This document shows, piece after piece, positions 3,966 to 10,640 of a stretch of DNA of 64,000 nt (positions within the stretch are counted from its first letter, which is position 1; each line of letters opens with the position of its first letter). Made by a program: the position numbers and the translations under genes. The stretch is taken from positions 1-64,000 of the forward strand of contig NZ_JAHDTH010000001.1 of NCBI RefSeq assembly GCF_018531445.1, given 5' to 3'. The DNA is from Pseudonocardia lacus (lineage in GTDB: Bacteria > Actinomycetota > Actinomycetes > Mycobacteriales > Pseudonocardiaceae). The notes under the pieces are model-generated. The model worked only from the letters and a program-made list of their open reading frames with translations, made no database searches and was not told the origin of the DNA.

Positions 3966-4028
3966 GGGGTTTCGAGTCCGCCCGGTGGGCGACTCCGGCG
4001 TCGTCCCGCCCACGCGTCGGAGGTGCCG

Positions 4029-4871
4029 ATGACCGCCAAGAAGCCCCCCGAGATCGCCGCCGCGGCCGTCGAGAGCGGGACGGAGAAGGCCCACCTGCGG
4101 TGGGACAAGGTGCTGGTCGGCGGCTTCCTGGCCGGGGCGTACATCGCGTTCGGCGGGCTGGTCGCCATCACCGTCTCCTCCGGCCTGGACCCGCGCACCT
4201 GGGGCACGCTGCCGACGCTGTTCATGGGCGCGGCGTTCACCCTCGGGCTCGTCCTGGTGCTCATCGCGGGGTCGCACCTGCTGACCGGCAACATGCTGCT
4301 GGTGCCGATCAGCGCCATGCAGGGCAGGCTCACCGTGGGCGAGGTGGTCCGCAACCTCACCCTGGTGCTGGTCGGCAACCTGCTGGGGGCGCTGTTCGTG
4401 GCCTACTTCCTGGCCGTGCAGACCGGGGTCATCGGCGATGTGGACTCCGAGGCCGGCGCCACGGGCGCGCTGACCTACGAGCGGCTGGCCTCGATCGTGG
4501 AGGCCAAGGGCCTGCACGAGACGTCGTGGCAGATCTTCCTGCGGGCCGTGGGCTGCAACTGGCTGGTCTGCCTGGGGGTGTGGCTCTCGCTGGCCGCCGA
4601 CAGCGTGGGCAGCAAGATCCTCGGGATCTTCTTCCCGATCATGGCGTTCGTGGCGATGGGCTTCGACCACGTCGTGGCCAACATGTTCTTCCTGCCGGCC
4701 GGCATCTTCGCCGGCGTGCCCGGCCTCGGGTGGGGCGACACCCTGCACAACTGGGTGTTCGCGTTCCTGGGCAACCTGGTCGGCGCGGTCGTGTTCGTGG
4801 CGACGTCGTACTGGTACCTGTTCCTGCGAGAGGACGACGGCGGCGGGCGCGCGCCCGCCGACCGGCGCTGA
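4029..4871 (+). CDS. Formate/nitrite transporter family protein (FocA-like channel)
   Basis: A 280-residue protein of the FNT family: pentameric inner-membrane channels for formate, nitrite or related small anions. Six hydrophobic segments are visible, with family features such as AGAYIAFGG in the first helix, SHLLTGNM near residues 80-87, CNWLVCLGVW near 180 and MGFDHVVANMFFLPAG near 220-235, where the central His lies. The ATG at 4029 is chosen because GGAGG (4018-4022) sits correctly before it; the in-frame GTG at 4023 overlaps that site. It lies 89 bases upstream of a formate dehydrogenase operon on the same strand, so formate is the likely cargo. The charged tail after residue 265 is cytosolic. 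Confidence 0.93.
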   Translation: MTAKKPPEIAAAAVESGTEKAHLRWDKVLVGGFLAGAYIAFGGLVAITVSSGLDPRTWGTLPTLFMGAAFTLGLVLVLIAGSHLLTGNMLLVPISAMQGRLTVGEVVRNLTLVLVGNLLGALFVAYFLAVQTGVIGDVDSEAGATGALTYERLASIVEAKGLHETSWQIFLRAVGCNWLVCLGVWLSLAADSVGSKILGIFFPIMAFVAMGFDHVVANMFFLPAGIFAGVPGLGWGDTLHNWVFAFLGNLVGAVVFVATSYWYLFLREDDGGGRAPADRR

Positions 4872-4960: not shown

Positions 4961-7900
4961 GTGGGTGTACGGCAGTGGCTGGAGAGCTGGCCGGTCTACC
5001 GGCAGCTGACCGGTCCCGACCCGTTGGGCCGGGGCGCTGCGGCGCAGTCGCCGCGGTACGCCGCGATGCGTCCGCGCACCGAGTCCGCCGACCGCGTCGC
5101 CGACTCCGTCTGCCCGTTCTGCGCGGTCGGGTGCGGCCAGCGCGTGTTCGTCCGCGACGAGAAGGTCGTGCAGATCGAGGGCGACCCCGACTCGCCGATC
5201 TCGCGCGGGCGGCTGTGCCCCAAGGGTTCGGCGAGCCTGCAGCTGGTCACCGGTCCGCAGCGCCAGGAGAAGGTCCGCTACCGGGCGCCCTACGCCACCG
5301 AGTGGACCGACCTCGACCTCGACACCGCCATGGACATGGTCGTCGACCGGGTCCTGGACGCCCGCGAGCGCGGCTGGCAGGAGCACGACGAGCACGGCAA
5401 CCGGCTGCGCCGGACGATGGGCCTGGCCAGCCTGGGCGGCGCGACGCTGGACAACGAGGAGAACTTCCTCATCAAGAAGCTGTTCACCGCGCTGGGCGCG
5501 ATCCAGATCGAGAACCAGGCCCGTATTTGACACTCCGCCACGGTTCCCGGTCTGGGGACCTCCTTCGGTCGCGGCGGCGCGACGGACTACCAGCAGGACC
5601 TGGCCAACTCCGACTGCATCATCATCATGGGCTCGAACATGGCCGAGGCCCATCCGGTGGGGTTCCAGTGGGTGGTGGAGGCGAAGGCGCGCGGCGCCCG
5701 CGTGATCCACATCGATCCGCGGTTCACCCGGACCAGCGCGCTGGCCGACACCTACGTGCCGATCCGCGCGGGTAGCGACATCGCCTTCCTCGGCGGCGTC
5801 ATCAACCACGTGCTGAGCAACGACCTGGACTTCCGCGAGTACGTGGCTGCCTATACCAACGCCTCGTTCCTGGTGCGCGAGGGCTTCCAGGACACCGAGG
5901 ACCTCGACGGGCTGTTCAGCGGCTACGACGCCGAGACCGGCACCTACGAGCGCGACTGCTGGCAGTACCAGGGCGCCGACGAGGAGCGCGAGGAGCCGGA
6001 GGGGGCCAGCCCGGACTCCCCGGCCGGCGACGACGACTCGGGGATGGACAAGGAGCGCACCTCGCCGCTGGGCCACGGCGCGTCCGGCGCCCCGCTGCGC
6101 GGGGTCTCCAACATCGCCACCGACCCCACGCTGGAGCACCCGCGGTGCGTGTTCCAGATCCTCAAGCGCCACTACGCCCGCTACACCCCGGAGATGGTGG
6201 CCCGGATCTGCGGCACCCCGCTGGAGAAGTTCCGGGCCGTGTGCGAGGCGTGGACGGCCAACTCCAACCGGGAGCGCACCTCGGCGCTGGTCTACAGCGT
6301 CGGCTGGACCCAGCACAGCGTGGGCGCGCAGTACATCCGGGCGGGCGCGATCGTGCAGTTGCTGCTGGGCAACGTCGGCCGCCCCGGCGGCGGGGTGTTC
6401 GCGCTGCGCGGGCACGCCAGCATCCAGGGCTCCACCGACGTGCCCACGCTGTTCAACCTGCTGCCCGGCTACCTGCCGATGCCGACCGCCGGCTCGCACG
6501 AGTCGCTCGACGCCTACCTCGACGACCTGCGCAGCCCGACCCAGAAGGGGTACTGGACCGGCGCCGACGCCTACCTGGTCTCGCTGCTCAAGGAGTACTT
6601 CGGCGACAACGCGACCGCGGAGAACGACTTCGGCTACGACTGGCTGCCCAAGATCGACGGCGACCACGGCACGTACCGCACGGTCATGGACATGGTCGAC
6701 GGCGGCAAGGTGTTCGGCTACTTCCTGCTCGGCCAGAACCCCGCCGTCGGCTCGGCGCACGGCAAGCTGCAGCGCCTGGGCATGGCCAACCTGGACTGGG
6801 TGGTCGTGCGCGACCTGGCGATGATCGAGAGCGCCACGTTCTGGAAGGACTCCCCGGAGATCGAGACCGGCGAGATCAGCCCGCAGACCTGCCGCACCGA
6901 GGTGTTCTTCTTCCCGGCCGCCTCGCACGTGGAGAAGGAGGGCACCTTCACCCAGACCCAGCGCATGCTGCAGTGGCGGGAGAAGGCCGTCGAGCCGACC
7001 GGCGACCAGCGCTCGGAGCTGTGGTTCTTCTACCACCTGGGGCGCAGGCTGCGGGAGCGGCTGGCCGGCTCGACCGACCCGCGCGACGAGCCCGTGCAGA
7101 AGCTGGACTGGGACTACCAGGTGCACGGGGACGAGCCCGCGGCGGAGGACGTGCTGCGCCGCATCAACGGCTACGACACCACGACCGGCGAGGCGGTGGA
7201 CTCCTACCTCGACCTCAAGGCCGACGGCAGCACCGCCTGCGGCTGCTGGATCTACAGCGGCGTCTACGCCGGGGGCGTCAACCAGGCCGCCCGGCGCAAG
7301 CCGCACGACGCTCAGGGCGCCTACGACCGCCAGTGGGGCTGGACCTGGCCGGCCAACCGGCGGGTGCTCTACAACCGCTGCTCGGCCGACCTGGAGGGCC
7401 GGCCGTGGAGCGAGCGCAAGAAGCTGGTCTGGTGGGACGCCGACGAGGGGAAGTGGACCGGCGACGACGTGCCGGACTTCCCGGCCACCACGCCGCCGGG
7501 CTACGAACCGCCGCCCGAAGCGGTCGGCCCGGAGGCGCTGCGCGGCGACGACGCGTTCATCATGCAGGCCGACGGGAAGGCGTGGCTGTTCGCGCCGCAC
7601 GGGCTGCTCGACGGCCCGATGCCCACGCACTACGAGCCGCACGAGTCGCCGGTGCCCAACATGCTCTACGGCCAGCAGGGCAACCCGACCCGCAAGGTCT
7701 ACGGCCGCACCGACAACCCGTCGAACCCGGCGCCGCCCGAACAGCACCGCGAGGTGTTCCCGTTCGTGCTGACCGCGGCGCGGCTCACCGAGCACCACAC
7801 CGCGGGCGGGATGAGCCGCCAGCTGCCCTACCTGGCCGAGCTGCAGCCGGAACTGACCGTCGAGGTGTCGCCGGAGCTGGCCAGGATCCGCGGGCTGACC

Positions 7901-8407
7901 CACCTCGGCACCGCGCACGTGGTCACCAGCCGTGCCGCCGTGCAGGCCCGGGTCATGGTCACCGACCGGATGGCTCCACTGCACATCGACGGGCAGGTCG
8001 TGCACCAGGTGTGGATGCCCTACCACTGGGGCGGCTCTGGCCTGGTCACCGGCGACGTGGTCAACGACCTGCTCGGCGTGGTCGCCGACTCCAACGTGTT
8101 CATCCAGGAGAGCAAGGTGGCCACCTGCGACGTCCGGCCGGGCCCGCGACCCCGCGGGGCGGCGCTCACCGCGATGCTGGCCGAGACCCGGGCCAGGGCC
8201 GGTGTCACCGTGGAGACCGGCACCCGCATCGCGACCGCGAGTGGCGTGCCGCACGTGGCGCACACCGACGACGACACCGACGACACCGACGACACCGACG
8301 ACACCGACGACACCGACGACACCGACGACACCGACGACTCCGACGACTCCGACACCGACGGCGACACCGACGAGACCGCCGGGAACAGCGCAGGGGAGCA
8401 GCCATGA
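4961..8407 (+). CDS. fdh: Formate dehydrogenase catalytic subunit, selenocysteine-containing (UGA at 5528-5530)
   Basis: This is the molybdopterin enzyme that oxidises formate to CO2. The frame is continuous from the GTG at 4961 (GGGGAG about 7 bases upstream) to 8407 except for one TGA at 5528-5530. That TGA falls exactly at the active-site residue of FDH-N/FDH-H, within NQARI-U-HSATVPGLGTSFGRG, so it encodes Sec190; the product is 1148 residues. The N-terminal 4Fe-4S motif is CPFCAVGC (Cys51, 54, 58) with Cys86 in LCPKG. Downstream, GSNMAEAHPVGF and the C-terminal molybdopterin-dinucleotide domain are intact. There is no twin-arginine signal, so the active site should face the cytoplasm, unlike E. 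coli FDH-N. The C-terminus is a low-complexity acidic tail. The gene overlaps the next by ATGA. Confidence 0.93.
5528..5560 (+). promoter_or_regulatory. Selenocysteine UGA codon with SECIS-like hairpin
   Basis: The in-frame TGA (5528-5530) is followed, after exactly 11 bases, by a 7-base-pair stem: GGTTCCC (5542-5548) pairs with GGGGACC (5554-5560), including one T-G pair. The loop is GGTCT (5549-5553). From memory, E. coli fdhF has the same 11-base spacing and the same GGTCT apical loop at the same distance from its UGA, which is where SelB binds. Codons on both sides of the TGA keep homology to formate dehydrogenases, which excludes a chance stop. No selA, selB, selC or selD gene is in the window. 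Confidence 0.88.
8276..8338 (+). repeat. 9-base tandem repeat coding the acidic tail of formate dehydrogenase
   Basis: Seven consecutive copies of ACCGACGAC encode (Thr-Asp-Asp)7 near the C-terminus of the catalytic subunit, followed by Ser-Asp-Asp variants up to about 8380. The repeat is in frame, so copy-number change would alter only tail length. Confidence 0.9.
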
Positions 8408-9465
8408 CCGGCAACCGGATCTCCGGACCGCTCCACGACGTCGCGGGCGAGGCCGGGCACGACGACCACCCGCCGCGGGTCGGATTCTTCACCGACACCT
8501 CGGTCTGCATCGGCTGCAAGGCCTGCGAGGTGGCCTGCAAGGAGTGGAACGCCGTCCCCGAGGACGGCCTGGACATGCTCGGCATGTCCTACGACAACAC
8601 CGGCTCGCTGGGCGCCAACTCCTGGCGCCACGTCGCGTTCATCGAGCAGCCGCGCTCGACCGGCCGGCAGGACCCGGGGTTCCTCGGGCTGCCCACCGGC
8701 CCCACCGGGACCTCGATCATGGCCGAGGCGGTCGGGCCGCGGCTGCGCGACTCCGAGCGCGGCGGCTCCGAGCTGGGCACCGGCCCGCTGGACGCCCCGA
8801 AGGCCGAGTCGGAGCACCCGGTCCAGGAGCTGGGCATGCCGGCGTTCGCCCGCCCCGGCGACGCGACCGGCGCCGAGGGGCGCACCGACTTCCGCTGGCT
8901 CATGGCCTCCGACGTGTGCAAGCACTGCACCCACGCCGGTTGCCTCGACGTCTGCCCGACCGGGGCCCTGTTCCGCACCGAGTTCGGCACCGTCGTCGTC
9001 CAGCAGGACATCTGCAACGGCTGCGGGTACTGCGTGTCCGGCTGCCCGTACGGGGTGATCGACCGCCGCCCGCACGACGGCCGCGCGCAGAAGTGCACGC
9101 TCTGCTACGACCGGCTGCACGGCGGGCTGGAACCTGCCTGCGCGAAGGCCTGCCCGACCGACTCCATCCAGTTCGGCGAGCTCGACGAGCTGCGCGAGCG
9201 GGCCGACCGCAGGCTCGCCCAGCTGCACGAGCTGGGCGTCGGCGAGGCGCGGCTCTACGGCCGCGACCCCGACGACGGGGTGGGCGGCGACGGCGCGTTC
9301 TTCCTGCTGCTCGACGAGCCCGAGGTCTACGGCCTGCCGCCGGACCCGGTGGTGCCCACCCGCGACGCGCCGTCGATGTGGCGGCGGGCGGGAGCGGCGG
9401 CCGCGGCGTTCGCGCTGGCCGGTGTGGGCGCGTTCGTCTCCGCCGCGATCGGGGCCCGCCGGTGA
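8404..9465 (+). CDS. Formate dehydrogenase iron-sulfur (beta) subunit
   Basis: A 353-residue electron-transfer subunit that carries electrons from the catalytic subunit to the membrane subunit. Four cysteine clusters of ferredoxin type are visible: CIGCKACEVAC (Cys35-45), CKHCTHAGCLDVCP, CNGCGYCVSGCP and CTLCYDRLHGGLEPACAKACP, enough for four 4Fe-4S centres as in E. coli FdnH. A hydrophobic C-terminal helix (about residues 328-350) ends in ARR and probably anchors the subunit. The start ATG overlaps the upstream stop (ATGA), so translation is coupled. The segment between the first and second cluster (about residues 60-155) is a longer insert typical of actinobacterial versions. Confidence 0.94.
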   Translation: MTGNRISGPLHDVAGEAGHDDHPPRVGFFTDTSVCIGCKACEVACKEWNAVPEDGLDMLGMSYDNTGSLGANSWRHVAFIEQPRSTGRQDPGFLGLPTGPTGTSIMAEAVGPRLRDSERGGSELGTGPLDAPKAESEHPVQELGMPAFARPGDATGAEGRTDFRWLMASDVCKHCTHAGCLDVCPTGALFRTEFGTVVVQQDICNGCGYCVSGCPYGVIDRRPHDGRAQKCTLCYDRLHGGLEPACAKACPTDSIQFGELDELRERADRRLAQLHELGVGEARLYGRDPDDGVGGDGAFFLLLDEPEVYGLPPDPVVPTRDAPSMWRRAGAAAAAFALAGVGAFVSAAIGARR

Positions 9466-10640
9466 CCGAGCGGGAGGGGACCTCGCACTCCGACACCGAG
9501 CGGGTCGGCGAGGCGGCCGCGCAGGCCGAGAACCGCGACATCGACCAGCGCGTGGCCCCGCCCGCGGAGCCGCCCGAGCAGTCCAGCGAGGAGGGCTCGA
9601 TCGGCCGCGAGGCGCAGCTGTTCCAGGGCAGCGGCCTGGGCCGGCGCCGTCGGCGCGGCGGGCGCGGGCGCGGCGAGCCCACGGTGGTGCCGGACGCCGA
9701 GTTCCGCTCGTACTACGGCCGCCCGGTGCTCAAGGCGCCGGTGTGGGAGTGGAAGATCGCGGCCTACCTCTTCGCCGGCGGGCTGGCCGCCGGCTCGTCG
9801 GTGGTGGCCGCGGGCGCCGACCTCACCGGGCGCCCCGCGCTGCGCCGGGCAGGCTGGCTCGGCTCCTTCGCCGCCCTGCTGGCCAGCCTGTACTTCCTGG
9901 TCAGCGACCTGGGCCGGCCGGAGCGGTTCCACCACATGCTGCGGGTGCTCAAGCCGACCTCGCCGATGAGCGTCGGCACCTGGATCCTCAGCGTCTTCGG
10001 TCCCGGCGTGGGTGCCGCGGCGGTGCGCGAGCTCGTGCCCCGCCGCTGGCGGCGCACCTGGCCCGCGCGCCTGCTCGACCGGCTGGCCCGCCCGCTCGGG
10101 CTCTCCGCCGCGGTCACGGCGCCCGGTGTCGCGTCCTACACCGCGGTGCTGCTGTCGCACACCGCGGTGCCGGGCTGGAACGAGGTCCGCGACGAGCTGC
10201 CGTTCGTCTTCGCCGGGTCCGCCGCGGCCAGTGGGGGCGGCTTCGGGATGCTCTGCGCCCCGGTCGAGGAGGCGGCGCCCGCCCGTGTGTTCGCCGCCGT
10301 CGGGGCGGCGGGCGAGCTGCTCGCCGCCAAGCGCATGGAGCAGCGCATGGGGCTGATCGGCGAGGTCTACCGGCACGGGAAGGTGCACCGGCTGCGGCGC
10401 GCCTCGGAGGTGCTCACGCTGGCCGGGCTGGCCGGGACGGTCCTGGTCGCCGGGCGCAGCCGGTCCGGCGCGGCCGCCTCCGGCCTGGCCCTGCTGGCCG
10501 GCAGCGCCCTGCAGCGGTTCGGGGTGTTCGAGGCCGGCATGGAGTCCACGAAGGACCCGAGGTACGTGGTGGTGCCGCAGCGCGAGCGGCTGGCGGCGCG
10601 GGAGGCCCGCGCGGCCGTCGCGCCGCCGGACCCCGGCTGA
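9462..10640 (+). CDS. nrfD: NrfD/PsrC-family membrane subunit of the formate dehydrogenase
   Basis: A 392-residue integral membrane protein of the NrfD/polysulfide reductase C family, which passes electrons to menaquinone. It replaces the cytochrome b subunit of E. coli FDH-N. The first 75 or so residues are hydrophilic, ending in a very basic stretch ([12 protein letters not shown]), and precede KAPVWEWKIAAYLFAGGLAAGS, the first helix. About eight hydrophobic segments follow, and SDLGRPERFHHMLRVLKPTSPMS is the family hallmark. No haem-ligating histidine pair is obvious, consistent with NrfD proteins. The GTG start overlaps the upstream stop (GTGA). It completes a three-gene operon. Confidence 0.9.
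   Translation: MTEREGTSHSDTERVGEAAAQAENRDIDQRVAPPAEPPEQSSEEGSIGREAQLFQGSGLGRRRRRGGRGRGEPTVVPDAEFRSYYGRPVLKAPVWEWKIAAYLFAGGLAAGSSVVAAGADLTGRPALRRAGWLGSFAALLASLYFLVSDLGRPERFHHMLRVLKPTSPMSVGTWILSVFGPGVGAAAVRELVPRRWRRTWPARLLDRLARPLGLSAAVTAPGVASYTAVLLSHTAVPGWNEVRDELPFVFAGSAAASGGGFGMLCAPVEEAAPARVFAAVGAAGELLAAKRMEQRMGLIGEVYRHGKVHRLRRASEVLTLAGLAGTVLVAGRSRSGAAASGLALLAGSALQRFGVFEAGMESTKDPRYVVVPQRERLAAREARAAVAPPDPG

Follow-up and report, generated by a model that had tools for sequence, protein, structure and literature searches.

A conserved formate dehydrogenase gene of Pseudonocardia lacus whose in-frame TGA is likely read as selenocysteine

The formate dehydrogenase gene of Pseudonocardia lacus raises a simple question: is a gene that is split by a stop codon broken, or does it encode an intact selenoprotein? 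Within the 64,000 nucleotides that were analysed (hereafter the window), fdhA, the gene of the alpha subunit, extends on the forward strand from an inferred GTG start at 4961 to the TGA at 8405-8407 (4961..8407), and comprises 1148 codons if an internal TGA is read through. This single in-frame TGA, codon 190 (5528..5530, forward strand), interrupts the gene, while open reading frames and translation place both flanks in one frame and in the same protein. The read-through protein matches the NCBIfam model NF041513.1 formate_DH_Act, in which we take 'Act' to stand for actinobacterial, with 1893.4 bits (cut-off 1400) over residues 6-1078, and TIGR01553 with 947 bits (cut-off 814.2). Outside the NF041513 match lies an acidic tail of DDT repeats near the C-terminus, which derives from a 9-bp tandem unit in 12.2 copies (8269-8378). 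As in Escherichia coli FDH-N (FdnGHI, 1kqf), to which the alpha subunit can be aligned over two long segments, the selenocysteine position falls into the same column: residue 190 aligns with the X (selenocysteine) of chain 1kqf_A. Together with the codon census below, this alignment marks codon 190 as a predicted selenocysteine codon.

To compare relatives of the enzyme, we drew on 60 genomes that belong to the same genus and order, the own genome among them; 43 of the 60 contain a formate dehydrogenase match at E 1e-100 or better. In addition, 80 of the 183 loci found were kept as named loci. The codon site was read in 132 loci, again including P. lacus. Four loci that duplicate a contig already in the set (L117, L118, L251 and L257) were left out, L186 stops short of the site, and L184 stands outside the counts as well. 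At this site 128 loci carry TGA, two TAG and two TGC. One might argue that a cysteine codon was misread during sequencing or mutated in a pseudogene, as the assembly is a draft of 501 contigs, a single base separates TGC from TGA, and cysteine versions do occur in 2 of the 132 loci. However, an accident of this kind is hard to reconcile with the same TGA in nearly all loci, nor does it agree with purifying selection downstream of the codon. There, dN/dS (Nei-Gojobori) ranges from 0.18 to 0.36 in six of six within-genus comparisons, with 0.08-0.34 upstream. Because of these downstream values, the part of fdhA behind the TGA is, as judged from substitution patterns, selected as a protein, and a pseudogene would look otherwise.

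Three further observations concern the same loci. A second selenocysteine codon, suggested by 'two TGA' in many formate dehydrogenase rows, was rejected, since on oriented sequence the second TGA is the ordinary terminal stop. In Pseudonocardia humida, the part of the gene behind the TGA is shorter by 16 codons. Saccharomonospora sp. CUA-673 (L184) has a formate dehydrogenase with TGA and hairpin and a frame break just downstream, reflecting either sequencing error or decay.

After a spacer of 11 bases (5531-5541) the TGA is followed by a SECIS-like hairpin (5542..5560, forward strand), delineated by covariation, a synonymous-codon control and the register of E. coli fdhF. Its 7-bp stem is formed by GGTTCCC (5542-5548) and GGGGACC (5554-5560), with one G-U among the seven pairs, and encloses the loop GGTCT (5549-5553). 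The first-pass annotation had described this TGA, stem, loop and distance, all of which are confirmed in the sequence, and had ascribed the same spacing and loop to E. coli fdhF, which proved correct on comparison with NC_000913. An RGTYT loop at exactly this distance after a TGA is unique in the window if both strands are scanned. A relaxed, family-derived pattern has one exact match in the entire 8.06 Mb genome, while the reversed-pattern control has none. The folding energy of the hairpin region is not unusual: a 48-nt fold has a z-score of 0.08, and 86 of 200 shuffles fold equally well or better. Likewise, the match to the Rfam family SECIS_3 (RF01989) reaches 28.1 bits (E 2e-4), below the gathering score of 63. 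Therefore, the hairpin was put to a comparative test, and support for it is comparative, not energetic. Codon usage is of interest in this context: in the counted part of the rest of fdhA, GTT accounts for 0 of 70 valine codons and GGT for 3 of 93 glycine codons, and the hairpin uses both.

The comparison was based on 66 distinct 36-mers with TGA or TAG, in which positions are counted from the U of UGA. Pair 18-30 is formed in all 66 (CG 35, UA 19, UG 9, GC 2, GU 1). It joins two third codon positions, the wobble base of a valine and that of a glycine codon, and because of this the protein does not account for the pair. When codons were replaced at random by synonyms, drawn according to the codon usage of the respective gene, it formed in 43% (sd 6, maximum 62, 1000 replicates). 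The loop reads GGTCT in 59, AGTCT in five and AGTTT in two sequences, so that all 66 fall into one class; the expected share of this class, itself defined from the data, is 8%. For the stem as a whole, 26 double-change cells compare with 9.7 in shuffles and a covariation score of 0.257 with 0.167; none of 500 shuffles reached either value. Slid versions of the stem gave up to 21 double-change cells against the 26, and the count of pairs changed on both sides was no better than in shuffles (435/500). Pairing fails in 32 of the 66 sequences at the outer pair 15-33 and in two at 17-31. From these comparisons we conclude that the hairpin core is under selection, a conclusion that does not extend to the outermost pair 15-33. 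In both homologues with TGC, L046 (G042) and L237 (G040:C223), the loop sequence is lost and the hairpin has decayed.

Selection at synonymous sites that keeps the hairpin is a further argument against sequencing error or a pseudogene mutation, which we thus regard as having next to no probability. It also bears on another scenario, in which translation simply ends at the UGA and each half of the gene yields a protein of its own. An ATG at 5627, downstream of the TGA, does open a frame of 926 amino acids, and a selenocysteine UGA would terminate translation under selenium scarcity. However, the best stretch of the molybdopterin domain PF00384 in FdhA spans residues 157-621 and would be cut at the active-site residue, while the selected hairpin would be purposeless. 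Separate halves are consequently very improbable as well, if marginally less so than an error or pseudogene. Although a stop codon seems to break it, the gene is very probably intact and encodes a conserved selenoprotein.

The hairpin shares with the SECIS element of E. coli fdhF at UGA-140 (NC_000913) the spacer of 11 bases, the GGUU that occupies positions 15-18 and the GGUCU of positions 22-26. The E. coli hairpin differs in that a single U is bulged out and the loop has four bases, whereas the stem described here comprises seven unbroken base pairs in which 18 pairs with 30. One might speculate that this is a bulge-free form of SECIS, in which an unbroken stem with pair 18-30 under selection takes the place of the bulged U, SelB would mainly read GGUCU in the loop, set at a constant distance, and the element would work after UGA or UAG alike. 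We put this forward tentatively and rate its chances as somewhat below even.

If UGA 190 encodes selenocysteine, the genome must carry the sel genes, as had already been reasoned from the window, and the search for them was positive. The own genome is assembled into 501 contigs with 8.06 Mb in total, at 99% completeness and 4.4% contamination. It contains one tRNA-Sec gene (selC) over the cut-off of 47, with 66.5 bits and the anticodon UCA, and selD with 390.5 bits (cut-off 125). Of selA only the first 115 codons are present (model positions 2-116 of 455), cut by the end of contig C275, a contig of 4149 bases on which tRNA-Sec, selD and the selA start lie together. The selB family model TIGR00475 gave nothing over its cut-off in this genome, and its top matches were rejected as selB because they represent EF-Tu, an EF-Tu paralogue and IF-2. 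The second EF-Tu-like protein has 392 amino acids and is encoded on contig C62 (L011), while the EF-Tu gene next after EF-G lies on a different contig. An own genome devoid of selB was nevertheless rejected, since a C-terminal piece was recovered with the SelB protein and the locus DNA of Pseudonocardia humida S2-4 (G015), the relative with the best formate dehydrogenase match. Residues 471-602 of the 605 of the P. humida SelB query match with 89% identity, thus 132 C-terminal residues, and the fragment occupies the extreme end of contig C494 (28574-28969 of 28971). C275 aligns to the sel locus of P. humida at 87-89%, and on that locus a single gap of about 2.4 kb separates the end of C494 from the start of C275. 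Because the fragments sit at contig ends around a single gap, selA and selB are most likely both present in P. lacus and merely cut by the assembly, as far as can be judged from the alignment.

The first-pass annotation had considered selenocysteine to be sparsely distributed in the phylum. Within this genus and order we found the opposite: selenocysteine is common, because a tRNA-Sec match exceeds the cut-off in 48 of the 60 genomes, a set that includes P. lacus. In one of the 48 (G045) the sole match is probably a tRNA-Ser according to ARAGORN, and secondary tRNA-Sec matches in G039, G040, G044 and G050 were rejected as they are tRNA-Ser by ARAGORN. Formate dehydrogenase and tRNA-Sec occur together in 40 genomes, three have the enzyme only, eight, G045 among them, the tRNA only and nine neither (Fisher p 2.3e-4, with genomes treated as unrelated). 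The three with the enzyme only are G042, which has a cysteine enzyme, and the incomplete G006 and G048. No selA, selB or selC match was found in the genome of G042, while G040, counted among the 40, likewise has a cysteine enzyme, yet retains tRNA-Sec and selA. Stricter filters revealed no tRNA-Sec match in G006 (72% complete, TGA-type enzyme) or in G048 (82% complete, TGA-type enzyme, selA and selB present). G035 and G056 complicate this picture: each has a TGA-type enzyme, a tRNA-Sec and selA, yet a selB match at E 1e-65 is missing, in G056 despite a listed completeness of 100%; either a diverged selB or an assembly gap would explain this. A tRNA-Sec without a formate dehydrogenase match at E 1e-100 occurs in G003, G005, G009, G021, G029, G044 and G046.

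The two loci with TAG, L036 (G050) and L123 (a Modestobacter MAG), both keep the hairpin, and an Rfam tRNA-Sec match in G050 bears the anticodon CTA and is named tRNA-Pyl by ARAGORN. Low-level read-through of UGA is generally known, and a near-cognate tRNA might thus read codon 190 and insert tryptophan or cysteine without SelB. However, a tRNA-Sec with UCA anticodon is present in P. lacus, and a hairpin that is kept in both TAG loci, one of them in a genome with a CTA tRNA, fits codon-specific selenocysteine decoding and not leaky UGA. Hence we attach hardly any probability to near-cognate decoding. Selenocysteine decoding of UAG also fits what is known from Geodermatophilaceae, for which, in the accessible part of the report, a tRNA-Sec with CUA anticodon and selenocysteine-coded formate dehydrogenase are described (PMC5330540); the two TAG loci and the CTA tRNA of G050 agree with it.

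Taken together, we are highly confident that fdhA encodes a predicted molybdopterin-dependent formate dehydrogenase alpha subunit, that selenocysteine is the likely reading of its UGA 190 and that the conserved hairpin likely serves as SECIS element. This is the enzyme that had initially been proposed for the locus, and the proposal is supported by the sel genes of the own genome, the 1kqf_A alignment, the codon census and the synonymous-site control. What the sequences show directly is how the genes are arranged, where the codon lies, that the hairpin is conserved and covaries, and that sel genes are present, two of which are incomplete; from these we infer expression of FdhA, selenocysteine insertion, metal and catalysis. 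If decoding follows the pathway known from bacteria, Sec-tRNA(Sec) would be the product of SelA and SelD, while SelB would bind the GGUCU hairpin and bring the charged tRNA to UGA, giving the full-length protein. Selenium might then coordinate molybdenum or tungsten at the active site.

Such a mechanism is well supported, but it is not new, given that NCBIfam has a model specific to these enzymes (NF041513), the published Actinomycetospora case and the tRNA-Sec matches in most of the genomes compared. Like FDH1 of Actinomycetospora chiangmaiensis, as far as the accessible part of that report describes it, this is an actinobacterial membrane formate dehydrogenase with a selenocysteine alpha subunit (PMC7176365). 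In the same part of the report formate accumulated without selenite (ratio about 0.6) and hardly with it, and the proteome contained FdhA1, SelA, SelB and SelD at low abundance. There, selA and selB are tabulated with the FDH1 cluster, whereas in P. lacus selA, selC and selD lie on C275 and selB on C494, off the contig of the window. More generally, the accessible parts of two surveys list formate dehydrogenase alpha and SelD as the most widespread bacterial selenoproteins (PMC5029168) and, in 2006, Actinobacteria among three selenoprotein-rich phyla, with Symbiobacterium then included in Actinobacteria (PMC1794560). Thus, the locus adds one more conserved, ordinary selenium-dependent formate dehydrogenase to a group where such enzymes are common. 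The bulge-free stem with its covarying pair 18-30 is a modest extra, and two covarying synonymous wobble positions provide a clean test of RNA-level selection on a SECIS element.

The neighbouring genes lie on the same strand and complete the picture. The start of fdhB (8404..9465), for a 4Fe-4S beta subunit, overlaps the fdhA stop; its product scores 185.4 bits against TIGR01582 FDH-beta, below the cut-off of 334.7, and 87.3 bits against Pfam Fer4_11, over the cut-off. It is followed by the gene of an NrfD-type membrane subunit (9462..10640; PF03916, 71.4 bits, cut-off 25.8). Homologues are found in 78 and 71 of the 80 named loci, respectively, some of which end at contig ends. In E. coli FDH-N the gamma subunit is a cytochrome b and the alpha subunit bears a twin-arginine signal. 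In contrast, the third subunit here belongs to the NrfD family, and no twin arginine occurs within the first 60 residues of FdhA; the enzyme likely faces the cytoplasm. Electrons from formate would pass via the FeS subunit to the NrfD-type subunit.

Upstream of fdhA lies the gene of a formate/nitrite transporter of the FocA/NirC family (4023..4871), which matches PF01226 with 255.4 bits, over the cut-off, and TIGR00790 with 207.8 bits, below the cut-off of 232.3. A homologue is present in only one of the 80 named loci, that of P. humida (L117), and the transporter and formate dehydrogenase side by side possibly represent a recent pairing in this lineage.
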